A DNA stretch of 64,000 nt from Posidoniimonas corsicana (GTDB lineage: Bacteria; Planctomycetota; Planctomycetia; Pirellulales; Lacipirellulaceae): positions 558,001-622,000 of the forward strand of contig NZ_SIHJ01000002.1 of assembly GCF_007859765.1 (NCBI RefSeq). Direction: 5' to 3'. The notes under the pieces were generated by a model, which saw only the letters and a program-made list of their open reading frames with translations, ran no database searches and was not told the DNA's origin. A program made the translations under genes and the position numbers. Below are positions 11,407 through 34,496 of this stretch, piece after piece (within the stretch, counting starts at the first letter, position 1; each line of letters starts with the position of its first letter).

Positions 11407-12897
11407 CTATTCCGCGAGAAAAAGTCCGCCTCTGTCCGACAGCGTCCGCCCACGACAGGCCGGCACTGATTCGAAATCAGGCGCCCCGCAAGGGGTTGTG
11501 GGTTCGAGTCCCATGCCCTCCGCTTCTACGCCAGACGCAACTCCTAATCTGGCAACTGTTTCAGGCGAGTCTCTATCAACTCGCCCCCGATCCCCCCGCT
11601 TACCGTCTGAGGCCGATTCCGGCCGATGAGAGACACGTTTAGCGCAGCTGTAGCGCAGCTCTTTCGACGCGTCGGCGTCGTCGGTCCCAGTCGCGGCGCC
11701 TGACTCCCGCGAGGCTGCAGGATCGCCAACCACGTCGAGGGCGCCGGCCACGTCGGCCGCCTGCAGGTGGGTGTACCGGCCGAGTGTGAGCTCAATGCTG
11801 GAGTGTCGCGCGAGCTGCTGGGCGATCTTCGGGCTCACGTTGGCCGCCGCCAGCGTGGTGATGAACTGATGCCGCAGGGCGTGGAAGTCGAACACGCGGC
11901 CAGCCTCGTCGGTGTAGGCGATGTCGGCCGCCTCGAGATCGGGCTGCAGCATCTCGGCCGCCCGCCGCGGCCACGAACCCGGAAACAGCTTCTGCGGCGC
12001 CAGGCTCAGCGAGCGGGCCCGCTTCACGTCGAGCCAGGCCTGCAGCTTCTCCGCCAGCCAGGTCGGCAGCGGCTGCTCGTCCTCGCGCCGGCGTTTCGAG
12101 TAGGCCGCCCGCACCACGACGCACGGGGAGTCGCCCTCGAGCTGCAGGCTCGCCGTCGTCAGCGTGGCGAGCTCGTTCGCGCGGAGCCCCGTGGCGATCG
12201 CTAACTGGTAGAGCATCGCCCGGTTGGGCCCATCCAGGCCGCGGAACGGAGTCTCGCTATCGTCAGCGGCGGCGATGAGATCCGCGAGCTGCTTTGCGCG
12301 CAGCACCCGCCGCTCGCGTCGCCGGTCGACCGCCTCGTTCTCTTTCGAGACCGCCTCAAATGGGTTCGCCGGCAGCCGCTTGGTCATGACGCACCACTTG
12401 CCGAACGACTTGAGATCGCCCCGGGCGGCGTTCAGGGTCCGCGCGCTCGCCCCGCCGCCGCGGAGCTCGTTCAGGTAGACCGTGAACCGATCGAGGTTCA
12501 GGTCGCCGAGCTTGTCGGCGTTCATCGCGGTTTGGATCCGCTTGAGCCGCCCGGCGGTCTCGCGAACGTACCGCTCTGAATTGCCCTTGGCCGCCAGGTG
12601 GGATTTGTACGCGGCCAGGTGCTCGGCGAGCGGCGTCTCGAGGTGGTCGCTGCACTCGTGCCGCAAACCCGACCGCGACCACTCGGCCCGCTTCACGAGC
12701 TGGGCGAGCTGCTGCGCGGCGGCGGTCTTGTCGGTCGACAGCTTCACCCGCACGGTTTCGCCGCGGGCGTCCTGGTACCAGCCGTAGTAGCGCTTGGACT
12801 GGTACTGCTTGGGCTTGGCGCCCGGCGCGTCTTTCTTCACGCGTCGGCCGTCGGGCCCCACGTACTTGGTGAACGTGAGCCGCTTGATCGTCGGCAC
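11407..12897 (-). CDS. int: Tyrosine recombinase / integrase
   Basis: 496 codons from the GTG at 12897, chosen for AAAGGAG upstream. An N-terminal basic region and a SAM-like core-binding domain (about 95-200) precede the catalytic domain with Arg in ATGLRANEL, HALRHQF, a second His in LARHSSIEL and the nucleophile Tyr in GRYTHLQ. The catalytic part is intact. The tail looks shifted: near 11660, removing one base of an AAA run would continue into CATAALNVSLIGRNRP and stop at 11544, and this peptide is conserved in the relic at 34.3 kb (CAQAALAVSAIGRNRP). As it stands, the frame runs on through the att copy to 11407, so the last 40 or so residues are tRNA-derived nonsense. It drives integration and excision of the 23-kb element. 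Confidence 0.9.
   Translation of the reverse strand: MPTIKRLTFTKYVGPDGRRVKKDAPGAKPKQYQSKRYYGWYQDARGETVRVKLSTDKTAAAQQLAQLVKRAEWSRSGLRHECSDHLETPLAEHLAAYKSHLAAKGNSERYVRETAGRLKRIQTAMNADKLGDLNLDRFTVYLNELRGGGASARTLNAARGDLKSFGKWCVMTKRLPANPFEAVSKENEAVDRRRERRVLRAKQLADLIAAADDSETPFRGLDGPNRAMLYQLAIATGLRANELATLTTASLQLEGDSPCVVVRAAYSKRRREDEQPLPTWLAEKLQAWLDVKRARSLSLAPQKLFPGSWPRRAAEMLQPDLEAADIAYTDEAGRVFDFHALRHQFITTLAAANVSPKIAQQLARHSSIELTLGRYTHLQAADVAGALDVVGDPAASRESGAATGTDDADASKELRYSCAKRVSHRPESASDGKRGDRGRVDRDSPETVARLGVASGVEAEGMGLEPTTPCGAPDFESVPACRGRTLSDRGGLFLAE
11468..11524 (+). other. Attachment site, left copy: 3' half of tRNA-Ser(CGA)
   Basis: 57 bases identical to 34440-34496. They start at the anticodon loop (TTCGAAA), continue through a long variable arm (CCCC GCAA GGGG), a T arm (GTGGGTTCGAGTCCCAT) and the acceptor strand GCCCTCC plus discriminator G. 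This is the 3' half of a class II tRNA-Ser with anticodon CGA. No matching 5' half precedes it, so it is not a working tRNA gene but the duplicated target of a tyrosine integrase. The integrase gene's frame crosses it on the minus strand. Confidence 0.85.
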
Positions 12898-12928
12898 GGG
12901 GTTGGCTCCTTTGTCGAACGCGCCACGG

Positions 12929-12970
12929 ACGCGTGGGGCCGGGGTTCGACTCCCGACCGCCACGCGCCGC
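12929..12970 (+). other. tRNA-3'-end-like sequence upstream of the integrase
   Basis: GGGGTTCGACTCCC has the T-loop consensus, is followed by CGACCGCCACGC, and is preceded by a small stem CCACG/CGTGG that could be a variable arm. The outer T-stem pairs poorly and no anticodon arm can be built, so it is at best a decayed fragment, possibly a second or older attachment sequence. Confidence 0.3.
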
Positions 12971-12995
12971 AGCAAAGGATTGATCGCTCACGAAA

Positions 12996-14529: not shown

Positions 14530-14592
14530 GGTTCCTTCCTGTCGCCTGTCGAGCCCTCGAAGCCCGGTGGTTGGTTGGTCCTGCGGGCGGCC

Positions 14593-15175: not shown

Positions 15176-15245
15176 CCTGCCTCCCGTTTGCTTGAACACG
15201 GAAGGCAGTTTGACGCTGTGTGCCGGGCAATGCGACGGATCAGTT

Positions 15246-15301
15246 CGGCCGTAACAGCGTTCCGGCCGAAAGAAAGTATGGCCGGAACGCCGTTACGGCC
15301 G
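15246..15301. promoter_or_regulatory. Large inverted repeat between opposing functional blocks
   Basis: Arms 15246-15267 and 15280-15301 pair at 21 of 22 positions around a 12-base spacer (GAAAGAAAGTAT). On the plus strand the hairpin is followed by GTTATTTTT, so it could terminate plus-strand transcripts. On the minus strand it covers the stop codon of the upstream gene and precedes the HTH gene by about 70 bases, so it may also end that transcript or bind the HTH proteins. Confidence 0.6.
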
Positions 15302-16171
15302 GTTATTTTTCCGTCGCTTTAGCTCCTTGCCCACTGACTTGTGAGAAAACTGCCTCTCACCCTCCGGTAGGTTTCGATTGAGGTACCGCACAAGCTGTGA
15401 CACGTTCCCAGGCCCCACGATCTCCAACGCAGTGTCGAGTAGCTCCGCGTTTCTCTTTTGATCAAATCGAGTCACTTCGCCTCGGGCCGCAAAGTCGCGA
15501 GCGACCCTTGCGGCATCACGGTAGCGGTTCCATCGCTCCAAAGCTTCCTTGTGCGCGAACAACAGTTTCGAGAGCGAAACTGGCAACGGTGGGCCGGGCC
15601 CTACGATCAATTCTTCAACGCATTCGATGGCGTACGTGCAGTAGTAGTTGGCGAAGCAAAGATCCTCAAGTTGAGAGTAGAGACGACGCTGCGACCGCCG
15701 ATCTCTCGACTCGGCGGGGTGACTCTTACGGCGCCACCACTTGTATCCAATGAACCTACCAGCGTTTAGGCCATAGATAGTTTGGCGGTCTTGGTTGTCA
15801 GTGAACGCGAAGCTGGTGACATTATTGGGGTGATAGCGCGAGGGCAGGATAACCTCATGAGAGAACTGCCTAGCCGCTGCGGCGGCAATATCAGAGCGCA
15901 GCGTACGAAGATCACGGAGCGCAGAATCTGGCTCAATCGGTCGGGCCCAAACAACAGCGTCGGGCTGGTCCTCACCGGTGGGAACTCGGGCGAGCGCCTG
16001 CTCTAACAGGGAACGCCCACCCCGCTGTGAAGTGACGCCGCGGAACATCGGGCGGCGGCTTGCGTTCTTGGAGAGTCGAGAACGGCGGCCCCGGCCGCTA
16101 TTTGAATTTCCCAAGATATCTACCTCCGATGACGCCGAGCCGGCCGGCGAGCAACGCGGGGGAGGTAGCAC
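15293..16171 (-). CDS. Hypothetical protein of the element
   Basis: 292 residues if it starts at the GTG at 16171; an ATG at 16048 would remove 41 poorly conserved-looking, basic residues. The central part has an aromatic-rich region (FIGYKWWRRK, LCFANYYCTYAIECVEELI) and the C-terminus is basic (VGKELKRRKNNRP). No enzymatic motif is recognised. It ends inside the inverted repeat at 15246-15301. It may be the first cargo gene or a replication accessory; I cannot say which. Confidence 0.6.
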   Translation of the reverse strand: MLPPPRCSPAGSASSEVDILGNSNSGRGRRSRLSKNASRRPMFRGVTSQRGGRSLLEQALARVPTGEDQPDAVVWARPIEPDSALRDLRTLRSDIAAAAARQFSHEVILPSRYHPNNVTSFAFTDNQDRQTIYGLNAGRFIGYKWWRRKSHPAESRDRRSQRRLYSQLEDLCFANYYCTYAIECVEELIVGPGPPLPVSLSKLLFAHKEALERWNRYRDAARVARDFAARGEVTRFDQKRNAELLDTALEIVGPGNVSQLVRYLNRNLPEGERQFSHKSVGKELKRRKNNRP

Positions 16172-16497: not shown

Positions 16498-17577
16498 TCA
16501 ATCCTCCACCCCAAAGTGTTGTGTCAGACGCTCAATAGTGAAGCTGCTAGTCATCTTGCAGGCGGTGTGCTGCAGGGCGAACAGGCCCTTCTCCCAATAG
16601 GCCTCTTCGCGGGGAACCGTCTTGATCCATTCGACGCGGACGAGGTAGGCGCAGAGCTCGTCGTTGTCCTGGTCGCGATCCATTTCCTGGGCGGCTAGCG
16701 GCGCATCGAGAATCGGAATCGTCTTTCCGTTCACCTCGACTTCAAAGTCTCGGACCGGCGTCGAGGGCCCCACGACTTTGCCAATGCCGACATAGCCCTG
16801 CTTGGGGATGTTCACGAAGACTCGCGCGCCCAGGAACAACGCGTCGAGGGTCTGCGTGTACCACTTGCCGCCGCTTCCGCAGATGAAACCGTACTTTCGG
16901 CAGTCATCCCAGTTCTGGTGCGGGCCTTCTCCCAGCGACACGTAGAAATCGCGGCCATTCCAGGGCTCTCGCCGCTTCTTGGCCGAAGACTTGCTGGTCT
17001 GCACCTCGGCGTCCTGCGGGTCGATCAGCCACGACCGCGTGAGGTACTCGCTGCCATTGTCTCTGAAATAACGGAAGAAGACCGTATTAATTGGCACCCC
17101 ATACCTGCCGCTGAGGTAGGTAATGATCCGCTCGGTGCTGGGGTCCAGCTCGGACGCGACGATGATCATCCGGTGCGATTCGTTCATGTCCTCGGGAAGG
17201 CTGTGGGAGAAGGTCTCGTCGAACCCGACTTCCAACTCCTTACCATCGTTCTTGGCGGCATACAGATCGCCGATGTCGTCGTAGGAAAGCCCCTCCACCC
17301 ACGACGCATAGTCGAGAGCCTGCGCGACCACCTCGCGCGGCGTCTTGTTACGCTTCAGCTCGATCACGACCAGGTTGCCGTCGCGGTCCATCGCCAGCAG
17401 GTCGATGAACTTGCCGTGCGCGGTTGGAATCTGTCGCCCCAGCAGCATCAGCCCCGGCGACAAGACTGACAGGTCCGCCGCGATGGTGTCCTCGAGTTTC
17501 GACTCCGACTCGATCGGCTCAAACTCGATCCGGCTGAGCGTATTGCCGAGCCGCCAGATTCCTACCTCGATCGGCAT
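16498..17577 (-). CDS. NucS-like (DUF91-type) endonuclease domain protein
   Basis: 359 residues from the ATG at 17577, with GGAGGAG five bases upstream. The N-terminal 130 residues hold a PD-(D/E)XK nuclease fold of NucS/DUF91 type: Asp in KFIDLLAMDRDG, Glu-x-Lys in LVVIELKRNK, then a Gln/Tyr helix AQALDYASWVEGL. After it come a mixed region and a C-terminal domain (about 215-330: WNGRDFYVSLGEG, FLGARVFVNIPKQGYVGIG) that resembles a substrate-recognition domain. One of three such nucleases in this island. The target, possibly modified or branched DNA, is unknown. Confidence 0.8.
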   Translation of the reverse strand: MPIEVGIWRLGNTLSRIEFEPIESESKLEDTIAADLSVLSPGLMLLGRQIPTAHGKFIDLLAMDRDGNLVVIELKRNKTPREVVAQALDYASWVEGLSYDDIGDLYAAKNDGKELEVGFDETFSHSLPEDMNESHRMIIVASELDPSTERIITYLSGRYGVPINTVFFRYFRDNGSEYLTRSWLIDPQDAEVQTSKSSAKKRREPWNGRDFYVSLGEGPHQNWDDCRKYGFICGSGGKWYTQTLDALFLGARVFVNIPKQGYVGIGKVVGPSTPVRDFEVEVNGKTIPILDAPLAAQEMDRDQDNDELCAYLVRVEWIKTVPREEAYWEKGLFALQHTACKMTSSFTIERLTQHFGVED

Positions 17578-17610
17578 CACTCCTCCCAAGCTTGCTTCTT
17601 GAAAACCTAC

Positions 17611-20276: not shown

Positions 20277-21107
20277 CTATTTTTTTGCGCGGGCCTCGTG
20301 CGTTAACGGGTTCGCCTGGGTGTAGTAGACCCCGTAGCCTCGCTCGCGGGTGTCGTCGACATCATGCACCAGGCCGGCCTGTGCCCAGATCAGGTTCAGA
20401 AAGCGATCCTCGTCGCGTTCATAGAATCGTTGCAACGCCCACAGGAAGTAATCAACAACCTGCAGGCAAGCCGTCTGGCGTGGCTCGCTCGCGATGATTT
20501 CTATTGAGGCCTCGCTTTCGATACCCCATTTGGACCGAAAGGCTTGTTTGGCGGCTTGCAAGGCGTCGCTGAAGGCCTCGGTCCGGTCCGAGCTGCCGCG
20601 AACGGCAAAACAGATTCTGTAGCCATCATCCTTGTGTAGTCGCTCCTTGAAGAGCTTGCTTACGCATCGGTCGTAGAGTTGATTCGGATGGTACCGGTAC
20701 TCTGGATTGCTCTCGTTTTTGGCGATCACCTTCCGAGCGATAACTTGCTTGTCGTGAACCACCGCATAGAAGCGGATGTCATGGCCCAAGAGCAGCCGAA
20801 ACACTTCGCGGCGCACCTCCGGAACATCGTCCTTCGCGTGAAACGCCAGTGCAGTCTTGCGTTTCTCTACCTGCATCGATGGCACGCCCTTGAAGTAGTC
20901 GTCGGCCAGCAGGCTCTCCCTAAGTTGCTCGAGCTCCCCGCTGAGTGCTATTGGGTCCACCACGTCAACCTTGCCGACGAAGAAGTACGAAGAGCACCCC
21001 GGCGTACCGACGATGACACGTCCCTTGCGGTTAAACAGCGTGGGATCACCGGCCTCATCAACGAAGTAGTGTCGCACCACGGGCGACCGCTGGCCTGCCT
21101 CCGTCAT
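20277..21107 (-). CDS. DUF3800 domain protein
   Basis: 276 residues. The DUF3800 signature is clear: HYFVDEAGDPTLF at the start, an internal LAFHAKDD, and near the end CLQVVDYFLWALQRF. The conserved acidic residues suggest an RNase H-like nuclease or nucleotide-binding fold, though no activity is firmly established. The ATG overlaps the HsdS stop by ATGA, so it is the last member of the restriction operon proper. DUF3800 proteins often accompany restriction and abortive-infection genes. Confidence 0.85.
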   Translation of the reverse strand: MTEAGQRSPVVRHYFVDEAGDPTLFNRKGRVIVGTPGCSSYFFVGKVDVVDPIALSGELEQLRESLLADDYFKGVPSMQVEKRKTALAFHAKDDVPEVRREVFRLLLGHDIRFYAVVHDKQVIARKVIAKNESNPEYRYHPNQLYDRCVSKLFKERLHKDDGYRICFAVRGSSDRTEAFSDALQAAKQAFRSKWGIESEASIEIIASEPRQTACLQVVDYFLWALQRFYERDEDRFLNLIWAQAGLVHDVDDTRERGYGVYYTQANPLTHEARAKK

Positions 21108-22858
21108 GCCGCATCTTCCTCAAGCAACCGGTGCACCATGGCGGCTAGCATCTTCTCGGTGATAGCGACCCTCTTCTCATGCTGCGCCCGTAGTGCGTCG
21201 CAACTAGCCAGCATCTGATCAACCTTGTCAACAATCCGCTGCTGCTCATTCAACGGGGGTACCGGGATCTGAAAAAAAGCCTGCTTCTGAATGCTTACCT
21301 GATTCCGCGTAGTCTGCGACATGATTGCAGCCATCTGCTCTTGCCAAACTTGGCTCCTCAAAACGATGTAGAAGTAGTTGCGGTCTATTGCTGCATCGTT
21401 AAGTCGATAGAATGTAACCGACGTTCCAAGCAGGAACGGTGCAACTTCTCCTTCGACACGCGCGACACGGCCAACTGTCGCGTTATGCGTGAGCAAGACA
21501 TCCCCACCCTGCGACCACCCTTTAACCAGTTGGTTTGCTTTATCTCTATTGAGCTTGCTGCATGTGCTCCATTGCACGCGTCCATCAACGAGGTCTTTGG
21601 CTGAGACGAATATCACACCGCTATTGGCAAACTCATTCTTGCGAGGATAGAGCGAACCGTGATTTCCGTCCGCGAAATCTACAATGATGTTGCGGTCGTA
21701 CAAATCTTGGATGACGGCATACTCCCACGACTCAGGAAGTTCAGCGAACAGACCACTCGGCACGTTCACCGGCGTCTTCTTCACCAGCTTTCGGCCGCGT
21801 TTGTAGTCTTTCGGAAGTACGTAGGTGCGGTCTAGCAGCTTAGACGAAGGCTCATCTTTCGGGTCCTGCTCCACCAGCTTCCCCTGCACCGCCAGCTGCA
21901 GGATCGTCTGCCGCAGGTCGTCGATGGTTTCGGGCGTGTCGTAGAGGGTTTCGAAGTGGTCGTTCAGGCGGCGCCAGGCGGACTGGATCTCGCTGCGGTC
22001 CGTCGCCGCGGTGAGGGCGTGCAGCGAGGCCTGGCTCGCCCGCTGCCGCAGGTCGACCTCCCGCTGCTGCTGAGCCTCGAGCTCGTCGCACATCGACATC
22101 AGGCTGTCGACTTTGGCGACTATGCGGAGCTGCTCGGCGAGGGGGGGAAGTGGGAATGGCGTTTCCGAAAAGTACGCCGTGGGGACCCGCTTCTGGCCGG
22201 CCGAGCCGGTCATCTTCGATACTCCGACTTCTAGGTACGACAACGACTTGAGGTGCAATAGTGCGTACTCTGGGAGAACGGCATCGCCAATCGGGCGAAG
22301 GACGTGCAACTCGGTCGTGCCTGCGCCAACGCCATTCTTGAGCCCTAGAATCACAGCGGACTTGCGATTTTGGAAGCACGGTGTGATTTTCGCCATTGCT
22401 ATATCACCGTCAGCAACGTGCGTGAAACCCTTTTTAACATCTCCCCAACTCCGGACTTCAGGCGAGATCGTTCCCGCATACCCATCGGAAATAGTTGCCA
22501 TCGGCAAGAACGATACCTCCGACGAGTCGTCAATGCTGTTCCGTGGTCCCACCTCACCAAGAATGCTGAAACGAGTCCACTCCCAACCGATCGGTAGCTC
22601 GTGCGGGACTTCTTCATTGCCTGGCGGCGGGGGCACTCTACGCTTTCGCAGCTTGCCATTCTCAACTAGACGCATCCGTTCTAAGCTGACCTGCTCCAAG
22701 AGTTCCGCTGCGGGAGCATCACCTTGGTGCTGCTCAACCAGCTTCCCACGCACGGCCAAGTCGAGAATCATTTCTCTCAGCTTCGCCACCGCGCCCGGAG
22801 CGGCAACGAATGCGTCGAGGTTGTCGAGAAACCTTGGAAGCATTCCGGCGGCAGTCAT
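21104..22858 (-). CDS. hsdS: Type I restriction enzyme specificity subunit
   Basis: 584 residues with two target-recognition domains and their coiled-coil spacers. TRD1 (about 95-255) starts LPIGWEWTRFSILGEVGP and ends LPPLAEQLRIVAKVDSL; TRD2 (about 375-560) starts LPESWEYAVIQDLYDR and ends VPPLNEQQRIVDKVDQML. The two PPLxEQxRIV elements are the hallmark of HsdS helical regions. Each TRD reads one half of a split recognition site. Start overlaps the HsdM stop by ATGA. The N-terminal segment before TRD1 (VAKLREMILDLAVRGKLVEQ) is repeated before TRD2 (IDDLRQTILQLAVQGKLVEQ). Confidence 0.95.
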   Translation of the reverse strand: MTAAGMLPRFLDNLDAFVAAPGAVAKLREMILDLAVRGKLVEQHQGDAPAAELLEQVSLERMRLVENGKLRKRRVPPPPGNEEVPHELPIGWEWTRFSILGEVGPRNSIDDSSEVSFLPMATISDGYAGTISPEVRSWGDVKKGFTHVADGDIAMAKITPCFQNRKSAVILGLKNGVGAGTTELHVLRPIGDAVLPEYALLHLKSLSYLEVGVSKMTGSAGQKRVPTAYFSETPFPLPPLAEQLRIVAKVDSLMSMCDELEAQQQREVDLRQRASQASLHALTAATDRSEIQSAWRRLNDHFETLYDTPETIDDLRQTILQLAVQGKLVEQDPKDEPSSKLLDRTYVLPKDYKRGRKLVKKTPVNVPSGLFAELPESWEYAVIQDLYDRNIIVDFADGNHGSLYPRKNEFANSGVIFVSAKDLVDGRVQWSTCSKLNRDKANQLVKGWSQGGDVLLTHNATVGRVARVEGEVAPFLLGTSVTFYRLNDAAIDRNYFYIVLRSQVWQEQMAAIMSQTTRNQVSIQKQAFFQIPVPPLNEQQRIVDKVDQMLASCDALRAQHEKRVAITEKMLAAMVHRLLEEDAA

Positions 22859-24345
22859 TTACTCACCTTGCTCAATGCTGCGGCGAGTTCATCGCGTAGC
22901 CCTTGCAGCGTGTGACGACTCGCGCCGCGCACCTTCTCCAGCTCGGCGAGCAGCTTGTCTGGATCGCCCGGTCCGTCGTCAGAGCTGTGCGGATTCTTAA
23001 CGTCTAGATTGAAGCCGTTCTCACGGATCTGGTCAGCCGAGACCTTCCACGCGAACTCGCTTTCCTTGCGGCCCTTGAAACCGCCGCGGGTGTCGGGCTT
23101 GCCCCACCACTTCTTCTCGGCCGCGAACTCCTCGATCCGGATCGGCTTGGTCTTGTTGTAGCTCTTGGCGCCGGGCGGGTAGGGGTGCTCGTAGTACCAG
23201 ACCTCCTTGGTGCAGCCGGTCTGGTCCTTCTGGCCCTTGGTAAAGAACAGCAGGTTGGTCTTGATGCCGGTGTACGGGCTGAACACCCCGTTGGGCAGCC
23301 GCACGATGGTGTGCAGGTTGCACTCGTCGAGCAGCTTCTCCTTGATGCGGGTCTTGACCCCCTCGCCGAACAGCGTGCCGTCGGGCAGGACAATCGCCGC
23401 GCGGCCACCGGGCTTCAGCAGCCGCATGATTAGCACCAGGAACAGGTCGGCCGTCTCGCGGGTGCGGAACGCCTGGGGGAAGTTGGCCTCGATGCCGTCC
23501 TCCTCCATGCCGCCGAACGGCGGGTTGGTGACGATCACGTCGACCCGGTCCTTGGGGCCGTAATCGGTGAGCGGGCGGGAGAGCGTGTTCTGGTGCAGGA
23601 TGTTCGACGGCGTGTCGATGCCGTGCAGCAGCATGTTGGTCACGCACAAGAGGTGCGGCAGCTGCTTCTTCTCGATGCCGTGGATCGACTCCTGCAGCAC
23701 ATCGCGGTCGTCGGGCGTCTTGACGTGGTTGGCCCGCACGTGCTCGATGGCGCAGGTCAGGAAGCCGCCGGTGCCGCAGGCGGGGTCGAGCACCTTCTCG
23801 CCAAGCTGCGGCGCGACCTGGTCGACCATGAACTGCGTGACCGCCCGGGGCGTGTAGAACTCGCCCGCGTTGCCGGCCGACTGGAGATCGCGGAGGATCT
23901 GCTCGTAGATGTCGCCGAACAGGTGGCGGTCCTCGGAGCGGTTGAAGTCGAGCCCCTCGACCAGCTTGTTAATCACCTGGCGGAGCAGCTGCCCCGACTT
24001 CATGTAGTTGATGGCGTCGTTGAACACGCCGCGGATCACGTACGCCTGGGGATTGCCGTTGACCCGCAGCTCCTTGAGCTTGGGGAACAGCTTGCCGTTG
24101 ACGAACTCGAGCAGTTCGTCGCCGGTGATGCCCTCGGGGTCGGCGGCCCAGTTCTGCCAGCGGAGGTACTGCGGCAGCGGCGACTTGAAGTCGTCGTCGA
24201 GCAGTTCCTGCTCCTGCTCGCGGTCGTCCAGCACCTTGAGGAACAGCATCCAGACGAGCTGCTCGATTCGCTGGGCATCGCCGTTGATGCCCCGGTCCTT
24301 GCGCATGATGTCCTGAATGGACTTGATCGTGGTCGATAGAGACAT
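22855..24345 (-). CDS. hsdM: Type I restriction enzyme methyltransferase subunit
   Basis: 496 residues from the ATG at 24345. An N-terminal helical domain (IQDIMRKDRGINGDAQRIEQ) is followed by an N6-adenine methyltransferase domain with SAM motif LDPACGTGGFL and catalytic NPPFGG. The C-terminus ends in helices (LDKLLAELEKVRGAS-like region) that contact HsdS. It should methylate adenine in the HsdS-defined site. Nine bases separate it from the nuclease gene upstream; it overlaps hsdS by four bases. Confidence 0.96.
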   Translation of the reverse strand: MSLSTTIKSIQDIMRKDRGINGDAQRIEQLVWMLFLKVLDDREQEQELLDDDFKSPLPQYLRWQNWAADPEGITGDELLEFVNGKLFPKLKELRVNGNPQAYVIRGVFNDAINYMKSGQLLRQVINKLVEGLDFNRSEDRHLFGDIYEQILRDLQSAGNAGEFYTPRAVTQFMVDQVAPQLGEKVLDPACGTGGFLTCAIEHVRANHVKTPDDRDVLQESIHGIEKKQLPHLLCVTNMLLHGIDTPSNILHQNTLSRPLTDYGPKDRVDVIVTNPPFGGMEEDGIEANFPQAFRTRETADLFLVLIMRLLKPGGRAAIVLPDGTLFGEGVKTRIKEKLLDECNLHTIVRLPNGVFSPYTGIKTNLLFFTKGQKDQTGCTKEVWYYEHPYPPGAKSYNKTKPIRIEEFAAEKKWWGKPDTRGGFKGRKESEFAWKVSADQIRENGFNLDVKNPHSSDDGPGDPDKLLAELEKVRGASRHTLQGLRDELAAALSKVSK

Positions 24346-24353
24346 CGTGTCTG

Positions 24354-25400
24354 CTAGGTGGCTTTCTCGAAGGTGATGTGCTGGGGTTTGAAGGTCTCGA
24401 GGAGCTTGAGCATCGCGGTCCTGGTGCGGTTGCCCCACTGATTAGAGAGGGCATAGGTTCTGCCCACATGATGGATCAGCTCGTTGTCTTCGATGAACCA
24501 GCGGGTCGGGTCGAACTTTCCGGAGTATTCCGCGCTAGCCGCGGCGATGAATGCGGCGGAGTCGACCTCCGAGTCGACTGCAACGAACAGGTTAGTGCGC
24601 CAGTCGATCACCTCGCCAATCTGCTCGGGCGAAACGCCGGAGCGGCAAAGCTCGTGGACAACCGTGTGGATCGCTCGCCGCTTCGGCAGGTTCTCGTGCA
24701 CCTGATCACCGACGGTGACATTGAAGCGGGTGTAGTCCCGGTTGGACCGACGAACGCTGCGTTCTTCCTGTTTCTTCTCCCTGACACGGATCTGGTAGTC
24801 TTCGGCCTCCGGCAAAGGTATCACCTGCTGAACATCGAGCAGCACCCGGTCAGCGTCCGCGTAGGGACGGATGCGGACGCAACTGATGTCGAGGCCGTGT
24901 TCGGCGAGCCAGAGCACCGTAGAGGTTAGCTCCTTGGAGAACTCGGCGGAAGCCAGCACGATGCGGACCTCGTTTGCGAAATCGTCCTCCCGGGCTTCGT
25001 CCCATTCGAGGAAGTCGAGCAGGGTCCGCTCCGCATCGCGGCCGTCTTGCCGGGCCGTCAGGTAGGCGGCGAAGATCTCCACCGCTCGGGCGAAGGTCAG
25101 CGTGGAGACCATCGCCGCGTAGCGCACGGCCTGCAGGTCCATGTGCCCGCCGTCCTCGGTGCGTTTGAGTTCGATCACGACCAGGTTCCCCTGCCGGTCT
25201 ACCGCCAGAAGGTCGATCCGGCGGCGGCTTTCTTCCCAATAGCCAAACTCCTCGGCGATCACGAGCGAGCCCGGGGCGATAACGTCGACCCGGTCGCGGA
25301 GGAATCGCTGCAGGTCGTCCCGCTCGCGGATGCCGGCGGCTTGAAAGGTCGTTTGTGGCACCGCGTCGAACGAGTCGCCGCGGATTTGGTAGATCGCCAT
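24354..25400 (-). CDS. NucS-like (DUF91-type) nuclease inside the type I operon
   Basis: 348 residues. The N-terminal part (about 1-130) has the NucS/DUF91 core: SRRRIDLLAVDRQGN, LVVIELKRTEDG, then LQAVRYAAMVSTL with the conserved Gln and Tyr. A central linker rich in charge (REKKQEERSVRRSNRDYTR) leads to a C-terminal domain (about 220-345: KRRAIHTVVHELCRSGVSPE, WFIEDNELIHHVGRTYAL) of unknown role. It lies between the membrane protein and hsdM with gaps of 3 and 8 bases, so it is co-transcribed with the restriction genes. Confidence 0.82.
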   Translation of the reverse strand: MAIYQIRGDSFDAVPQTTFQAAGIRERDDLQRFLRDRVDVIAPGSLVIAEEFGYWEESRRRIDLLAVDRQGNLVVIELKRTEDGGHMDLQAVRYAAMVSTLTFARAVEIFAAYLTARQDGRDAERTLLDFLEWDEAREDDFANEVRIVLASAEFSKELTSTVLWLAEHGLDISCVRIRPYADADRVLLDVQQVIPLPEAEDYQIRVREKKQEERSVRRSNRDYTRFNVTVGDQVHENLPKRRAIHTVVHELCRSGVSPEQIGEVIDWRTNLFVAVDSEVDSAAFIAAASAEYSGKFDPTRWFIEDNELIHHVGRTYALSNQWGNRTRTAMLKLLETFKPQHITFEKAT

Positions 25401-26484: not shown

Positions 26485-28905
26485 TCACGCGGCTCCGGCG
26501 TACAGAGCGTTCTCGAGCTCCAGGAGCGCCTTCAGATACCCCTGCTTGCCGCCAAACCTCCGGACGATCTCGATAGGCGTACCGAAGCTCCGAAGCGGCT
26601 CAACCTTGAGCACATCCAGATCTTCGAGGCTTTGTATACCTCCGTCCGAATACTTCTGGAGCAGGGCCTCCAACACCGCGCGGGCCTCGTCACCGTACTT
26701 AGTGAAGTAGTCACGTTTGCGGACTTTGTCGGCCCTCTCTCGCCTCGTCAAAGGCGGCTGGTCGTAGGCTACCTTGCAGATGAGATCGAAGGCGTCGAGG
26801 TCGGCGCCAACCTCATCGGCTAGCGCCTCAAACAGCACGCCCTGTTCTTCGAGCTCATCGATGATGGCTTGCTTTCGCTCAGCGGATGTCCAGGTCTGGA
26901 TGAACGCTTCAAGCGATGCGTACTGGCTGCTGACCCTTGTTCGTGTGTAGTCCTTGAGAGACTCGGTGATCAGCTTACCCGTAGTCGGATCGAAGTACTG
27001 CACACGTTCGGCTGCTACCGAGACTTGGACATCTCCTACGTAGAACTTTCTTGGCTTTGGCGCTGTTGTGTCGATATCGATTCCGCCGACGGGTGGTGGG
27101 TCGTAAATGACCCTAGCGTCCTGATCTTCGTCCGCATCGAGCTCACCGAGACCACCCAGGTCGTCCGGCTCGCTTTGGTTGATATCATCTGGCGGGACTG
27201 GCGTGTCATCGAGCTTTGGCTCGTAGATGCAAATCGGCGGGCCGTCGAAGTCGGGGTCGGCGAACAGCTCGGTCGCCTTCTTAAAGTCCATGATTGTGAA
27301 GAAGTACTTGCCGTAGTCTTCCTTGATGCGAGTGCCCCTCCCGATAATCTGCTTGAACTCGGTCATCGACTGAATGCGGCGGTCCAGCACAACGAGCTTG
27401 CATGTTTGGGCGTCGACGCCTGTAGTCAGCAGCTTGGACGTGGTCACGATGACGGGGTAGCGACTCTCTGGATCAATAAAGTTATCAAGCTCAGCCTTGC
27501 CTTCCGGGTTATCGCCTGTAATCCGCATGACATACTTGCGGTTCTCGGCCACCAGGTCCGCGTTCTCATTTACGATCGCCTGACGCATGCGTTCGGCATG
27601 GTCGATGTCCTCGCAGAACACGATCGTCTTGTCATACCGATCGGTGCCCTTGAGGAATTCAGTGACCTTCTTGGCCACGCCGATAGTCCGCTGATCGAGC
27701 ACCAGCGACCGGTCGAAGTCCTTCTGGTTGTAGATACGGTCCTCGACGACAATGCCGTAGCGATCCTTCTTGCCTTCCTCCGGACGCCAGCCGGTAAGGT
27801 CTTTGTCGAAGTCAATCCGTACGACACGGTAGGGCGCGAGGAAACCATCCTGAATACCCTGCTTGAGCGAGTAGGTGTAGACGGGGTCGCCGAAGTAGTT
27901 GATGTTGGAAACGTAAGTGGTCTCTTTTGGCGTTGCCGTTAGGCCGATCTGGGAGGCCGAGCTAAAGTACTCGAGAATCTCGCGCCACTGGGAATCCTCC
28001 GCCGCGCTCCCCCGGTGACACTCGTCGATGACGATGAGGTCGAAGAAATCCGGCGAGAACTTCTTGAATGTCTTCTTGTCCTCTTCAGTCCCGGTAATTG
28101 CCTGGTAGAGGGCGAGGAAGATCTCAAACGACTTGTCGGCGACGCGTTTCTCGATCTTGGTCATCGCCGCGCCGAACGGCTTGAAGTCATTGACCTTAGT
28201 CTGGTCGACCAGAATGTTCCGATCTGCCAGGAACAGAATCCGTTTCTTCAAACCCGCCTTCCAAAGCCGCCAGATAATCTGGAAGGCCGTGTAGGTCTTA
28301 CCAGTACCGGTGGCCATAACCAGAAGAGCGCGGTCGTCGCCCTTGGCCACTGCTTCGACCGTGCGGTTAATGGCGTTGGCTTGGTAGTAGCGAGGGGACT
28401 TGCCGCTGCCGTCAGAGTAGAACTCCTGGGTTACCGCTCGCTCGGCGGTCTCGGTGAGCTGCTTCCATTCGCAGTAGCGCCGCCAGAGCTCGTCGGGCGA
28501 CGGAAATCGACCAAGGGGTATCTCGCTCTCGGTGGCGTCACCGCTGCGTGTCTTGTCGTGAAAGAGAAACGCATCCCCATTGCTGCTGAATGCGAACGGC
28601 AATGCGAGTGCGTCGCTATCATCTGCGTAGGCTAGCGCCTGCTGCATCCCTGCGCCGACGGCGTGGTTGTTGTCCTTCGCCTCAATCACCGCGATCGGCA
28701 GGTTCGGTCGGTAGTAGAGCACGTAATCGGCACGCTTTGCCTTACCCCGCCTAACTACCCGGCCTTTGACTAAGATCTGGCCGGCCGTGAACGAGACCTC
28801 CTCGCGGACCTGGGTGGCCAACTCCCAACCAGCCCTCTGAAGCGCCGGCGTGATGAACTGAGTGCAGATATCGCGTTCCGACAACGACCTTTTGTCGATT
28901 GGCAT
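26485..28905 (-). CDS. hsdR: Type I restriction enzyme endonuclease/translocase subunit
   Basis: 806 residues. The N-terminal PD-(D/E)XK nuclease is seen in [20 protein letters not shown], followed by SF2 translocase motifs: Walker A in [21 protein letters not shown] box in [18 protein letters not shown], and motif VI near [16 protein letters not shown]-terminal helical region binds the methylase core. The enzyme translocates DNA and cuts unmethylated targets. The ATG at 28905 is the most upstream sensible start. It heads the minus-strand operon and faces the helicase gene across a 314-base divergent region. Confidence 0.96.
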
Positions 28906-29219: not shown

Positions 29220-32200
29220 ATGGAAGTACGGTACAAGAAGACGCTTCTGCCAATTGCAAAGTCAGAAGAGGAGTACGAGGTTCACTGCGCCGCAGTGGAG
29301 TGGAGTCTCGCCGACCCTATCGTAATAAGTAGCGTGGACGATGTGCAGTCTCGCGCGCAGTGGAGCGACGACTTCCAACCGTTTCGCCATCAGGTGCAGA
29401 ACCTGATCACTTTCTGCCGGTGCCTGCCAGTGACCCTCGTCGCCGATGATGTCGGTCTCGGAAAGACAATCACTGCCGCGATCATTATCGCGGAACTGAT
29501 GAAGCGGCGTCGAGTCTCAAGGACCTTGATACTCTGCCCGAACATCCTCACAGACCAGTGGCGCGAAGAGCTGGCGGCAAAGGTTGGCGTGGAAGGGACG
29601 GTCGCCAAGGGCGATGAACTTGACAGAGAGTTTCGGGGCAGTTCTCCAGTCGTCATCACGACCTACCAATCTGCCCGCAGTCGGTTAAAACGGCTTCCAC
29701 CGGACGCCTTCGACTTCTTGATCCTCGACGAAGCCCACACGATCAGGAACCTCTATGGCGTTCCAAAACCACCGATCATCGCTTCAGAAGTTCGTCGCGT
29801 ATTAGCCGCGAGATTGTTTACATTTTCGCTAATGCTAACTGCCACCCCGATCCACAACCGGATCTGGGATCTGTACTCGCTCGTTGACTGCCTTACCGTC
29901 GCGAAAGGATCCCCCAACCCACTTGGCACGCCCGATGAATTTCAGGCAAAGTACATCGCAGACAACCCAGTTGCTCGGCGACTTCGCCCAGAAGCTGAAA
30001 CGGAATTCCGCGAGCACCTACGAAAGTATCTTGCGCGCACTCGACGTGCAGATGCCAACCTCGCCTTCCCAACGCGGCACGTAGAGATGTTCCGCGTGCA
30101 GGCGACTTCTCTGGAAGTCCAGTTACTGAGGATTCTAGCTGAGAACATCCGGATGCTCGGAGGATTCCAGCAATCGTCACTCGCGGTCGCCCTCATGAGT
30201 AGCCCGCAGGCTTTCGAAGCTCAACTTAAGAACATGGCGAAACTCACCCCGGTTGCAGCAAAGATGCTCGCGGAGGTGAAGGCCGTCGTGGGCAGCCATA
30301 CGACCACCTACAGCAAGCAAGCCGGACTCTTGCAGATCGTTGAGCAACTTCGCTCACAGCGTCCCGAAGATTGGCGCCTTCTAGTGTTCACAAGTCGAAG
30401 GGAAACGCAGGGGGCGATCGGAAGGCTACTCAGCGCCATAGGGGTGGCTTACGGGTTTATCGCCGGGAGTCAGCCAGCCCAAAACGCTCAGAACATTGCG
30501 GCGTTCTCCTCTACCCTACCTTCGATAAATGTCCTGGTGTCCACAGACGCAGGGGGACAAGGCGTCAACCTTCAGGCGTGCAATGTCTTGGTCAACTACG
30601 ACCTGCCGTGGAATCCCATGGTCGTGGAGCAACGCATCGGACGCGTACAGCGACTCGCCTCCCCACACAAGCATGTAACGGTCTTCAATCTCTGCATTGC
30701 GAATAGCCCGGAAGAACATATTGTCGGACGACTAATTGAGAAGCTGCAAACCATCTTCGCAACAGTCGGCGACATCGACTCTATTCTTCAATCTGCCTTC
30801 CAGGACGATGCACATAGATCTTTCAGCGAACAACTCCTTGATTTGGTAATCAAATCGCTCGAAGGCCAAGACACCGAGCTTGCAGCCCGCCTCGCAGAAG
30901 ATAGCATCGAGAAGGCGAAAGACCTGATGCTGGAGAATGAAAAGCAGATCGATGAGCATCTAGGGCGGCTCGATGAACTCCACACATCTGGGCCTTTCCC
31001 TCCTCAACTTCCCAAGCCAACCCCGCGACTAACAGCTTTCGAGTTCGTCCGTGCTGCGGTCGCAACTGAGGGTGGCGAGCTATGTGACATTGGCAACGGC
31101 CAGTGGATCGTCGAGAGGCCAGGTCAACCGAATGAACGGGCTATATTCGATGAGCGACACTGGAAGGAACTGGAACGCTCTGAGTTCATGGTCGCCCCCC
31201 CTCCGAAGCTCTATCGGAGCGGAAAGCCAGCGTTTGAGAACCTTGTATCGCATTGGTCCCAGAACGGCGCCGCGAAAATTCGGTACGAGCGAGATTCCTG
31301 GCCGAAGCTAGCGAGCAAGGTCGCTTCTTCGTGGTTGACGAGGTTTCCCACGCTAGACGCAGAGAGCGTTGACTTCCACTTGATTGGGATCGCCATAGAG
31401 GGTCACGCGATTGCTCGTGTCACCGCCTCTACTGGGGTGGATGGCTACGAAAAGCTTCTCGAAGTGCCAATTCCCTCCGTAGACGTGACCGCTCCTGACG
31501 CAAACCTGTCGGATATTGAAGAAGCCTCCGACCGAATCTCTCTGGACACCGTTCACATCGGCACAGAAGGACTTGTGGTTCATCAAGTTGAGCAAGACAG
31601 CGACATTAACGCGTTTTGCGATTTCTACGAACAACGACTTCGACAGGAAAGACAACGCGTTGGGGCAATAAGCGGTTCTTCAAAGCAGATCGAGATCGAC
31701 CTGAAGCCCACCGTGGAGGCGTCAATTGTCGCCTTCGCAGGCGAAGCCATTCCAATTGGCAACGTGGTTCTGGATCTCGCGATCGATGGTCACTCTGGCT
31801 ACAGCGCCGTCCTACGGGTGTGCCCGACGCTTGGGCAGGTGGTCTCCTCCCCCGCTCCAGCGAGATGCGAAGAGACCGGCGCCCTAGTACCTGAAGCATG
31901 CCTCTCGCTGTGCGAGGTCTCCCAGAAGCGAGTTCTACCACATCTGCTCATTAGATCCGACGCCTCCGGGCGACGAGGCCTGAAATCGCTCGCGGCCATT
32001 TGCGAAGAGTCAGGCACAACGGTGTTCCGCGAAGAACTCGGCCAATGTGCCCTGTCTGGCAAACAGGTCGCCAAGCATCTGCTTGCTGCGTCAGAGGTGA
32101 CTGGAAAGTTGGCAATCGCTTCCAAGCTTCTAAGGTGCGAAATCACAGGGACCCTTGCACTTCCTGATGAACTGATTGCGAGCGAGATCTCGGGGAGATC

Positions 32201-33893
32201 ATACCGCTCCGACCAGCAGGTCAGCTCATCGATTTCTGGTGTGACGGGGCACCTAACGGAGTTTGCGAAGTGCGAAGAGACCGGCCAGCTTCTCTTGACC
32301 GAAGAGACATTGCTTAGCGACTTCAGTGCTAAGCGGGTGCGCCGCGATCTTCTTGTGGCATCCGGAAGGCCACCTCACCGCAAGGGACTTCAGGCAGAGT
32401 TGACGACCTGTTCAGTAACGGGAAGAAAACTCCTACTGGACGAGGTTGCTTGTTCGGTAGTTTCGGGCAGAGTTGTAGATCGCAGCCTACTGGTACAGAG
32501 CGACAAGAGCGATGGAATGGCGTTGGAAGAGGAGATGGTTTATTGCGAGGTTTCAGGCCACCGTCTACTCCCATCAGAAACCCAGTTGTCGTCGGTCTCC
32601 GGGAAGCGAGCCTGGGGGCCCCTGCTCTTCAAATCGGACTTGTCGAATGCCTTGTGCCTCGAGGATGAATCTTGCCTATGTGCCATCACCGAAACACGTG
32701 TGCTCCATACCGAACTCGCTCTAAGCGAGGTTTCGGGGCTCAAGTTCCGGAAGGACCAGGCGTCCTCGTGTAGCGTTACTGGCAAGGTTGCTCATATCTC
32801 AGAATTGGAGCGCTGCTCGCAGTCCGGCCAGCTTGCGCTACGCGACGAGATGGGGCAATCTGCTATAAGTGGATCGCTATCGATTCGCTCCCTTCTTACC
32901 GCATCTGACCTTAGTGGACGGCTCGGATGTGCGGCGAAGGATGAGGTCGTGAGGTGTGCAGTGACAGGAAAGACTTTGCTCTTGGATGAGGTGTCTCAGT
33001 CTGCCGTCAGTGATCGATATGTCGACCGTCGAATGTTGATTCCATCTGAAGTATCGGGAAAGCTCGCCTTACCTGAGGAGCTCGTCAAGTGCGAGATGAG
33101 TGGGAAGAGTATTCTGCCAATCGAAAGGGAGCAGTGTGAGGTCACGGGTAAACTCGTCGATGCAAGGCTTCTCGCCAAAAGCGAAGTTTCCGGGCGTTCT
33201 GCGTTGGCGTCGCGTCTTTCCCGATGCGACTTGACCGGTCGGATAGCACTACCGAGTGAGCTTGCACGATGCGAAGTAAGCAGTCATCGGGTGGTCGCCG
33301 AACTGCTGGAGGAATGCAGTTTCTCTGCAAAGTCAGCAATCCGCAGCGACATGGTGACTAGTGCCGTTTCGGGACGGTGGCTGATAAAGAGACACGCCAT
33401 CACAACTTACCCGAATGGAGTCATATGCCATCCGGACGAGTCCACCCGCTGCTCATGGATCGGCGAACCGGTGCTGGCAACAGAAGCCTTTGAATGTCAA
33501 TGGACTGGCCTGACCTTCTACAATGCCTATCGTGGGCAATACAGCAGGCTGTCTGCAATTGAAAGCCTGCTGGCGAACCCCGACTACGGGGAGGGGGGTG
33601 CTCACTTGGCCCCCTGGCTGGAACAACAGGTAGGAGGGGCACTCAGGGGATTAACGTCCGTCAGGTTTGTGAGCTCCCCTAATGGTGCCCTAGCCGCATT
33701 CTGCTGCGACATTCAGAAACTATTCAAACTCTCGCCAAGAATCGCAGTGTTCATGGTGAAGACAAGGGAAGGTCGACAAGTCGTAGGAAATGTAGCGATT
33801 CTTAGAGTCCAGAAGCATGAAGCGTTCGTCGAGAAGTCCATAGCGGCTAGCCCTATGCCATCGCCACGAGACCAAGCTGCCCACCGACGATAG
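29220..33893 (+). CDS. Giant SNF2-family helicase with 34 tandem 15-residue repeats
   Basis: 1557 residues. Residues about 50-510 are an SNF2-type helicase: Walker A DVGLGKT (GLGKT at 79-83), DEAH (170-173), LMLTATPIHN (204-213), and the C-lobe with GGQGVNLQ (445-452) and QRIGRVQR (471-478). The middle (about 520-870) is helical then mixed. From Cys883 to about 1395 come 34 units of 15 residues with the pattern C/S-x-x-S/T-G-K-x-x-x-x-x-x-L-x-x. They are grouped in threes: C, C or S, S first residues give a 45-residue super-period, as in CEVTGKLVDARLLAK. The tail (about 1396-1557) keeps two more CxWxG elements, then a globular end. The repeat array is likely a solenoid and may bind metal through its Cys. 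I know no family with this array. It stands alone on the plus strand, opposite the type I operon, at the element's end. Confidence 0.85.
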   Translation: MEVRYKKTLLPIAKSEEEYEVHCAAVEWSLADPIVISSVDDVQSRAQWSDDFQPFRHQVQNLITFCRCLPVTLVADDVGLGKTITAAIIIAELMKRRRVSRTLILCPNILTDQWREELAAKVGVEGTVAKGDELDREFRGSSPVVITTYQSARSRLKRLPPDAFDFLILDEAHTIRNLYGVPKPPIIASEVRRVLAARLFTFSLMLTATPIHNRIWDLYSLVDCLTVAKGSPNPLGTPDEFQAKYIADNPVARRLRPEAETEFREHLRKYLARTRRADANLAFPTRHVEMFRVQATSLEVQLLRILAENIRMLGGFQQSSLAVALMSSPQAFEAQLKNMAKLTPVAAKMLAEVKAVVGSHTTTYSKQAGLLQIVEQLRSQRPEDWRLLVFTSRRETQGAIGRLLSAIGVAYGFIAGSQPAQNAQNIAAFSSTLPSINVLVSTDAGGQGVNLQACNVLVNYDLPWNPMVVEQRIGRVQRLASPHKHVTVFNLCIANSPEEHIVGRLIEKLQTIFATVGDIDSILQSAFQDDAHRSFSEQLLDLVIKSLEGQDTELAARLAEDSIEKAKDLMLENEKQIDEHLGRLDELHTSGPFPPQLPKPTPRLTAFEFVRAAVATEGGELCDIGNGQWIVERPGQPNERAIFDERHWKELERSEFMVAPPPKLYRSGKPAFENLVSHWSQNGAAKIRYERDSWPKLASKVASSWLTRFPTLDAESVDFHLIGIAIEGHAIARVTASTGVDGYEKLLEVPIPSVDVTAPDANLSDIEEASDRISLDTVHIGTEGLVVHQVEQDSDINAFCDFYEQRLRQERQRVGAISGSSKQIEIDLKPTVEASIVAFAGEAIPIGNVVLDLAIDGHSGYSAVLRVCPTLGQVVSSPAPARCEETGALVPEACLSLCEVSQKRVLPHLLIRSDASGRRGLKSLAAICEESGTTVFREELGQCALSGKQVAKHLLAASEVTGKLAIASKLLRCEITGTLALPDELIASEISGRSYRSDQQVSSSISGVTGHLTEFAKCEETGQLLLTEETLLSDFSAKRVRRDLLVASGRPPHRKGLQAELTTCSVTGRKLLLDEVACSVVSGRVVDRSLLVQSDKSDGMALEEEMVYCEVSGHRLLPSETQLSSVSGKRAWGPLLFKSDLSNALCLEDESCLCAITETRVLHTELALSEVSGLKFRKDQASSCSVTGKVAHISELERCSQSGQLALRDEMGQSAISGSLSIRSLLTASDLSGRLGCAAKDEVVRCAVTGKTLLLDEVSQSAVSDRYVDRRMLIPSEVSGKLALPEELVKCEMSGKSILPIEREQCEVTGKLVDARLLAKSEVSGRSALASRLSRCDLTGRIALPSELARCEVSSHRVVAELLEECSFSAKSAIRSDMVTSAVSGRWLIKRHAITTYPNGVICHPDESTRCSWIGEPVLATEAFECQWTGLTFYNAYRGQYSRLSAIESLLANPDYGEGGAHLAPWLEQQVGGALRGLTSVRFVSSPNGALAAFCCDIQKLFKLSPRIAVFMVKTREGRQVVGNVAILRVQKHEAFVEKSIAASPMPSPRDQAAHRR
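31866..33404 (+). repeat. Protein-level repeat array (34 x 15 residues) in the helicase gene
   Basis: The repeats are strict in length: only about two units deviate (16 and 17 residues). They are diverged in DNA, so the array is old and kept by selection on the protein. Seventeen units begin with Cys and the rest with Ser; the C-S-S or C-C-S order persists across nearly the whole array, with one skipped position around unit 20. This periodicity is not a CRISPR or DNA satellite. Confidence 0.88.
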
Positions 33894-34156: not shown

Positions 34157-34439
34157 TCAGCCGTTGCCTAACGCGTCGAGCATCGCTCGCGCCTTCTCGA
34201 GCACACTTGCTGCGAGCTCGCGGGAGGGGGGCGACAGGCGATCGCAGACGCGATGCAGCGCCTCGAGCGCCGCGGCGAGTTCGTCACCGGGCTGCTGCGC
34301 TGGTGGCCGATTCCTGCCAATGGCAGACACGGCTAGCGCAGCCTGAGCGCAGCTCGACTCAGCAAGCATGACGGATTTTGCCCCGGAAGTTGAATCGCCA
34401 CTTGAGGTTGCGGCGTCGTCACTCCGCTCCCGCGAAACA
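34157..34439 (-). pseudogene. Relic of an integrase C-terminal tail next to the right att copy
   Basis: The minus-strand frame runs out of the att copy and contains CAQAALAVSAIGRNRP (about 34304-34351), matching CATAALNVSLIGRNRP in the shifted frame at 11610-11657. It then continues through DELAAALEALHRVCDRLSPP to a stop at 34157. No catalytic domain is present. Its upstream (N-terminal) part is missing, replaced by the att sequence. This looks like the tail of a second, related integrase left by an earlier recombination at the same target. Confidence 0.6.
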
Positions 34440-34496
34440 GATTCGAAATCAGGCGCCCCGCAAGGGGTTGTGGGTTCGAGTCCCATGCCCTCCGCT
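34440..34496 (+). other. Attachment site, right copy: 3' half of tRNA-Ser(CGA)
   Basis: 57 bases identical to 11468-11524, ending the 23-kb element. As on the left, no 5' half of the tRNA precedes it (no GGAGGGC acceptor strand in the preceding 100 bases), so neither copy is a functional tRNA gene. Sequence to the right (34497-34644) is short, gene-free and leads into host genes. Confidence 0.85.

Follow-up and report, generated by a model that had tools for sequence, protein, structure and literature searches.

What would a helicase gain from an arm of some 37 short repeats, and what might such a protein do at the far end of a mobile element? The question is raised by a gene in the 64-kb window (the whole stretch of 64,000 nucleotides that was analysed), where an SNF2 helicase with a C-terminal array of 15-residue repeats is encoded on the plus strand at 29220..33893, from an ATG start and over 1557 aa. 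Its SNF2 motor occupies about residues 50–530 (29367..30809, plus strand) and is followed by a family-specific middle region of residues 535–882, delimited in alignment A2 (30822..31865, plus strand). The array itself, of about 37 units of 15 residues, runs from residue 883 to 1440 as judged by unit count and structure prediction (31866..33539, plus strand). Beyond it lies a C-terminal region, residues 1441–1557 (33540..33890, plus strand), which the alignment finds kept in relatives and which is mostly strands in an AlphaFold model of the C-terminal part.

The motor is the easiest part to name. Pfam places an SNF2-rel_dom at residues 72–313 and a Helicase_C domain at 376–479, both above the Pfam cut-offs, and the protein carries the Walker A, DEAH and QxxGRxxR motifs of SNF2 helicases along with these two domains. 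The motifs start at residues 79 (GLGKT), 170 (DEAH) and 471 (QRIGR), bearing out a preliminary description that had read a complete SNF2 motor at just these residues. Outside residues 72–479, no Pfam match was found at E up to 0.1. Six helicase motifs were intact in 11 of 12 aligned members of the family, and GLGKT, DEAH and QRIGR together in 16 of the 17 members that bear repeats; the exception in both cases is L014, whose motor and array lie in different frames and which is represented by its second frame. The array helicase of that locus (L014:10169-14091) is thus split across two reading frames, through a real frameshift or an assembly error. SNF2 motors use ATP to track on double-stranded DNA, and RapA, BrxHII and DrmD are thought to do likewise.

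The array is the unusual part of the protein. Its units follow the pattern [C/S]-x-x-[S/T]-G-[K/R] and have L, E and L at later positions, and 34 of the 36 steps between units measure exactly 15 residues, the others being one of 16 and one of 17. The preliminary description had counted 34 strict units from residue 883 to about 1395; the start was right and the strictness very nearly so, but the count is 37 and the array extends to 1440. Read in register, these 37 units open with C in 19 cases and with S in 17; they have S or T at position 4 in 34, G at position 5 in 28 and K or R at position 6 in 20, and two of them, at 1048 and 1396, are a poor fit. Within residues 883–1440, [CS]xx[ST]G recurs at a distance of exactly 15 residues in 17 pairs, as against one at most in any of 20,000 shuffles of the same stretch, so that the C/S-x-x-S/T-G-K pattern first described is upheld. 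A named Pfam repeat family over residues 883–1395 would have spoken against the earlier reading; none was found at E up to 0.1. Across the family, 481 units were collected from 17 members with 13–61 units each. Cys stands at position 1 in 270 of these and Ser in 172; position 4 has S or T in 436 and Cys in 1, and G is found at position 5 in 342.

At the DNA level, the units of the window array share on average 37% of their bases and at most 62%, and the serines at position 1 are written with both sets of codons (TCN in 11, AGY in 6). The units are old, and the divergence of their DNA noted in the preliminary description is confirmed. A longer period is superimposed on them, since cysteine or non-cysteine status at position 1 agrees between units three apart at 0.76, above the 95th percentile of shuffles (0.69), and the 45-residue super-period of the preliminary description therefore holds in the window. 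As a rule for the family it fails: in L013, L109 and L110 the period is one of four units (agreement 0.75, 0.77 and 0.88, in every case beyond the 95th percentile for that array), and none of the short arrays in the family has a period above chance. A solenoid with a fixed three units per turn, which the 45-residue period had suggested, was accordingly dropped. The three- or four-unit periods suggest block duplications and, taken with the wide variation in unit number, might be what one would expect if the array were a passive spacer, lengthened by the duplication of units and of little specific function. That reading has a low probability in our view, because units so diverged (37% base identity) have nevertheless kept C/S, S/T and G, in codon sets between which no single step leads, and because a rod-like fold is confidently predicted for them.

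The structural prediction is strongest for the array taken alone. AlphaFold gave the first 256 array residues a pLDDT of 93.8 and a pTM of 0.68, and the whole C-terminal part a pLDDT of 73.1 and a pTM of 0.37, with most of the array well predicted; AlphaFold may be over-confident for repeats. In the model, each unit is a strand, a six-residue turn carrying the CxxSGK motif, a second strand and a three-residue helix, after which the pattern repeats. Searches for known folds of this kind returned little. Foldseek found 0 of 206 PDB matches of the array model at E up to 0.001, the best rows being LRP2/megalin and LIM proteins, and the weak PDB matches (all E > 0.001, Z at most 5.7) were largely to LIM, PHD and FYVE zinc domains. 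Against BFVD, 20 of 516 matches reached E 0.001 with a TM-score of at most 0.36; these are a mixture of adenovirus fibres and uncharacterised proteins from phages and giant viruses, and no relationship was drawn from them. The array profile had a single, chance-level match among solved structures (MfpA, E 0.74), and the C-terminal part had no match among them.

Any resemblance to tandem zinc-knuckle domains such as LIM, PHD and FYVE would lie in short hairpins with a CxxxGK turn, the fold matches being weak (E > 0.001), and the difference lies in the ligands, as the array has one Cys or Ser per unit where those domains have CxxC or its equivalent, in two such pairs to each zinc. This bears directly on the possibility that the array is a metal or redox module, in which cysteines of neighbouring units would share zinc or an iron–sulphur cluster and sense metal or oxidation. 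Its turn is certainly knuckle-like in shape, the weak PDB matches are mostly to LIM, PHD and FYVE, and several cysteines at type-I positions are invariant in the 12-row alignment. Zinc held unit by unit is nonetheless unlikely, because the second knuckle cysteine, at position 4, occurs in just 1 of the 481 units; position 1, moreover, alternates between Cys (270) and Ser (172), and position 1 is not clearly linked to the glutamate at position 12 (P 0.053), a C1–E12 pair that was not used further. Metal-binding knuckles were thus rejected as the default reading, against the earlier suggestion that the array could bind metal, and a metal or redox module as a whole strikes us as improbable. Because 480 of 481 units lack the knuckle's second ligand, the array is read most simply as a metal-free hairpin rod. 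From the models and the composition, we infer that each unit would be a beta-hairpin whose zinc-knuckle-like turn has lost its metal ligands, and that the units would stack as a long, roughly neutral rod. Charged, exposed positions do recur along it (K/R at position 6 in 62% of units, D/E at position 11 in 43% and at position 12 in 46%), and the net charge of the arrays across the family ranges from −3.5 to +4.0 per 100 residues. Strong DNA binding on grounds of charge was discarded for an array so near neutral, and the fixed 45-residue geometry once proposed for it does not survive the four-unit periods of other members.

The 15-residue unit occurs outside the helicase as well. Of 59 genomes related to that of the window, 14 gave short matches to the array and nothing more, and 13 of those 14 are proteins of about 420–520 aa in which a few 15-residue units are followed by a four-cysteine stretch. 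These 13 make up alignment A4, the remaining match (L095) having no ORF that passed the filter. In a profile–profile comparison, A4 matched the array with 97% probability (E 9e-11) over 56 columns, all of them within units. The window's own genome has the gene (C5:4035-5327), and others lie at L132–L140. Its neighbours were viewed at nine loci, with a methyltransferase-like gene at six and a sigma-70-like gene at five, one of each being Pfam-confirmed; as the neighbours are conserved between genomes, the gene looks like a core gene of Pirellulales. The two proteins share units of the same kind and differ in that the small one has no helicase, few units and a four-cysteine ribbon. That its units end in four conserved cysteines (C328, C331, C345 and C348) counts in favour of the metal or redox module considered above. 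Two members scanned gave no Pfam match. Among solved structures, the profile of the small protein matched a cytochrome c555 construct (E 2.2e-5) in the four-cysteine stretch, and this was taken for a match of the cysteine motif. Considering that the small Pirellulales protein also carries the units, the 15-residue unit was probably not an invention of the helicase.

How the whole protein relates to known helicases can be judged from its motor and middle region. RapA-like helicases are components of BREX-related systems, where BrxHII has a RapA-like architecture, according to the accessible part of one report (PMC12839542), and of DISARM and ARMADA according to that of another, which counts ArmA among the BrxHII-like RapA helicases and gives ArmD, a UvrD helicase, a RelE-like N-terminus (PMC12458937). 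Much like these RapA/BrxHII-type proteins (BREX type 3, BR systems, ArmA), the window family has an SNF2 motor, followed by what may be alpha+beta regions, and is found in defence loci. It differs from them in its 15-residue array, in another C-terminal region and in a motor that starts near the N-terminus; such an array goes unmentioned for BrxHII and for ArmA in the accessible portions of the two reports (PMC12839542 and PMC12458937, respectively).

Model scores place the protein near several named families and inside none of them. DrmD of class I DISARM supplies the best PADLOC match (169 bits) and the best NCBIfam match (NF038317, 205.1 bits against a cut-off of 610), both over the motor. 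The score is thus below the DrmD cut-off, DrmA-DrmB-DrmC were seen in the L013 locus only, and PADLOC found neither DrmA nor DrmB among six window neighbours scanned. DpdE (NF041062) has a similar motor, which its model matched at 157.1 bits against a cut-off of 500, and the repeat array falls outside that model. The RapA model (NF003426) scored 101.6 bits over motor residues 67–573 against an equivalog cut-off of 576. Membership in DrmD, DpdE and RapA was rejected on these scores, and because the cut-offs were missed the family is best treated as a variant of RapA-type defence helicases and not as a member of any of the three. At sequence level, its link with RapA appears weak.

The middle region adds a structural hint. 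Its profile had no PDB match at E up to 10, and VIA-align, working on a low-confidence model (pTM 0.37), returned five RapA entries at Z 5.8–7.9 and placed the region on RapA residues 702–968; NTF2-like folds and a designed protein equalled those scores. The middle region may therefore have a fold like the C-terminal region of RapA, as far as the model goes; the RapA/BrxHII architecture itself is defined by an inactive REase-like domain and a C-terminal alpha+beta domain behind the motor. Such a placement, together with the match of the motor to the RapA model and the several RapA-like proteins reported for Planctomycetes in the accessible part of one study (PMC8567305), would also suit a RapA-like factor for transcription or for the recycling of RNA polymerase, for which the island is a mere landing site. 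We hold this to be quite improbable. The motor scores far under the RapA equivalog cut-off of 576 bits, its match starts at about residue 72 and so leaves little space for the N-terminal Tudor pair of RapA (as far as the sources on RapA extend), and the spread of the gene is patchy and mobile, unlike that of a core transcription factor.

That spread was followed in a scan of one genome per species, from which 80 of 150 relatives were listed. Among those, at least 11 (L004–L014) match most of the query, with 35–50% identity in the best segment, and the groups represented include Planctomycetota, Gammaproteobacteria, Elusimicrobia, Peregrinibacteria, Wildermuthbacteria, another group of Patescibacteria and Oligoflexia. 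Further members were taken from whole-genome searches, including L109 and L110 (middle region at E 2.8e-39 and 1.9e-19), which are counted among the 17 repeat-bearing members and stand outside the 15-locus neighbour counts given below. L056, matched up to query residue 1041 and with no ORF that has repeats, was not counted. Among 392 Planctomycetota genomes, 6 matched the profile of the middle region, or linker domain; the window's genome is one of these, and one of the matches is weak. In three groups of genomes, each selected because it already had a known member, the middle-region profile found 2 of 379, 2 of 198 (one of them weak, over 39 residues) and 1 of 240. With so few genomes matching in each group, the family is rare and patchy. 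No match to the C-terminal part was found by tblastn against plasmids or against phages, and in a scan of IMG/VR made from the alignment, 339 stretches fitted a pattern and none encodes a relative. The family and its array appear to be undescribed in the searchable literature, which stops short of subscription papers. Of the original proposal of an undescribed system, then, this part seems to stand, and the motor, which resembles RapA-type defence helicases, is the part that is not new.

The mobility of the window gene can be read from its surroundings. A direct repeat of 60 nt bounds a 23-kb element within the 64-kb window, its left copy (11465..11524, plus strand) being the 3′ part of tRNA-Ser and its right copy (34437..34496, plus strand), 59/60 identical in the repeat search, lying about 540 bp past the SNF2 gene. 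A 49-nt part of the repeat has three exact copies in the genome, all on contig C2 and in the same orientation (at 517860, 569473 and 592445, the last two being those of the window); the first is inside an intact tRNA-Ser(CGA), and the other two are not in an intact tRNA-Ser. It is from these repeat copies and the position of tRNA-Ser that the window is read as holding a 23-kb element that seems to have been inserted directly after one of about 52 kb, the two forming a tandem. The GC content, 0.55–0.57 across the SNF2 gene, is 0.65–0.67 just outside the element.

The cargo comprises a tyrosine integrase (11407..12975, minus strand; PF00589), a type I restriction system, PD-(D/E)XK and NucS-like genes and, at the far end, the SNF2 gene. 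HsdS (21104..22858; Methylase_S), HsdM (22855..24438; N6_Mtase and HsdM_N) and an HsdR of the EcoAI/EcoEI type (26485..28905) are all on the minus strand, and HsdR is divergent from the SNF2 gene, with 314 bp between the two. Repeats, integrase and HsdR/M/S together confirm what had been suspected, namely that the gene lies last in a mobile element, with a type I system as its neighbour. Two ORFs of the window, at 16498-17589 and 24354-25400, have NucS C-terminal-like matches (the second weak) and hold a 63-nt stretch in common at 79% identity.

Other members of the family keep comparable company. The relatives are accessory genes that frequently have defence systems next to them: a named defence system was present in the fetched stretch at 7 of 15 close loci (the window, L108, L013, L004, L010, L114 and L009). 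Besides the type I system adjacent to the SNF2 gene in the window, type I genes lie on the same strand as the array helicase in L108, with HsdM 78 bp before it. The array helicase of L013 is about 4 kb from DrmA-DrmB-DrmC, and that of L004 has a type III methylase, a Z1 helicase and a UvrD helicase near it. L010 has a type IIG system, L114 AbiEi/AbiEii, and L009 McrBC and, about 18 kb off, a type I system. L005 and L008 have a nuclease-like neighbour as their only such gene, which in L008 is an RNase_H_2/Cas4-like gene 9 bp downstream of the array helicase. No recognised defence gene was found in L006, L007, L011, L012, L014 or L111, where one neighbour each was HMM-scanned and the others were judged by the start of their sequence; in L111 the gene stands alone, adjoining a GatC gene. 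The alternative that homologues occur solely among core housekeeping genes thus falls for the helicases, and a shorter run of units does occur in the core-looking Pirellulales gene.

Several loci show further features of their own. In L108, a tRNA-Pro and after it a tyrosine integrase (L108:4361-5723) are separated by about 3 kb from the array helicase with its type I genes; a search for attachment repeats there turned up no flanking repeat as long as 20 nt. An RVT_1 reverse transcriptase gene (L141:3-1442) lies just upstream of a DrmA-DrmB-DrmC cluster and array helicase. In L004, the array helicase lies between two ORFs (9534-9953 and 13674-15905) that have a similar N-terminal stretch, and the second, a UvrD helicase with a weak HigB-like match, recalls ArmD of ARMADA as described in the accessible part of that report (PMC12458937). 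ARMADA is marked by a YprA-like ArmC, a PglX-like ArmB and ArmD in company with the SNF2 gene, and of these an ArmD-like neighbour was noted in L004. Directly after the diverged, four-unit-period member L110 comes a kinase-like gene (L110:9078-12185) that matches the PD-T4-6 models of PADLOC.

Two kinds of neighbour could be weighed against a background. Genes for N6_Mtase lie within 10 kb at 3 of 15 loci, where 0.27 were expected from 29 such genes over about 61 Mb of the 15 genomes (P 0.003). One of the three loci is the window, where a type I system was already known; leaving it out gives 2 of 14. The second kind is DUF2779, a family classed as presumed 3′–5′ exonucleases with a PD-(D/E)XK-like part in the accessible text of one survey (PMC3985635). 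All three DUF2779 genes of the 15 genomes adjoin the SNF2 gene, directly after it in L010 and L114 and directly before it in L005, an arrangement with a chance of about 6e-7. DUF2779 is not a general partner, since 12 of the 15 genomes, the window's among them, have no such gene. The nuclease also has a life of its own, as its plasmid copies occur amid other mobile genes and without an array helicase in the five contexts viewed.

Mobility, restriction neighbours and a linked nuclease together argue for a role against invading DNA, and we consider a mobile, accessory RapA/BrxHII-like defence translocase, whose arm docks partner proteins, to have about an even chance of being right. Within this explanation, the defence role is the stronger part and docking by the arm the weaker. 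As known for the SNF2 family, the motor would consume ATP to track along double-stranded DNA. The hairpin rod, to go by gene order, could serve as a docking arm for nuclease or restriction partners, which might be a DUF2779 or RNase_H_2 nuclease in some lineages and restriction enzymes in others. Partners so held would be kept near the DNA that the motor scans, and the invading DNA would be destroyed. A docking scaffold fits better than a plain DNA binder, because the arm is neutral, is predicted to be rod-like and varies in length.

Another means by which the arm could act is as a sensor, a rod of variable length that triggers the motor once it has bound to something repeated in the invader, be it DNA, RNA or a phage polymer. 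A unit number that ranges from 13 to 61 while the unit pattern is kept would suit such a function, as would the defence surroundings and the exposed charged positions (6, 11 and 12) in every unit. We judge it a rather unlikely reading, as a roughly neutral array does not favour plain nucleic-acid binding and a brief look along the units saw no position that varies like the code residues of TALEs. A bolder combination is conceivable, with a similarly small chance of being correct: the array would be a new kind of metal-free hairpin rod, its length of 13–61 units tuned for reach or for a TALE- or ankyrin-like reading of a repeated invader feature, and the helicase would, in Patescibacteria and Gammaproteobacteria, be one half of a two-gene defence system whose other half is the DUF2779 exonuclease.

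SNF2 motors of the RapA-like kind recur in BREX, DISARM, Dpd and ARMADA, where the question is how each is steered to invader DNA or to its nuclease. The family found in the window offers such a motor with a simple, countable arm, for which nature has provided a length series running from 13 to 61 units, beside restriction systems or a closely linked nuclease gene. Should the arm dock partners or recognise the invader, this series would be a direct test of how motor and effector are coupled. The work also adds a small repeat family, absent from Pfam, that is common to these helicases and to an apparently core protein of Pirellulales.
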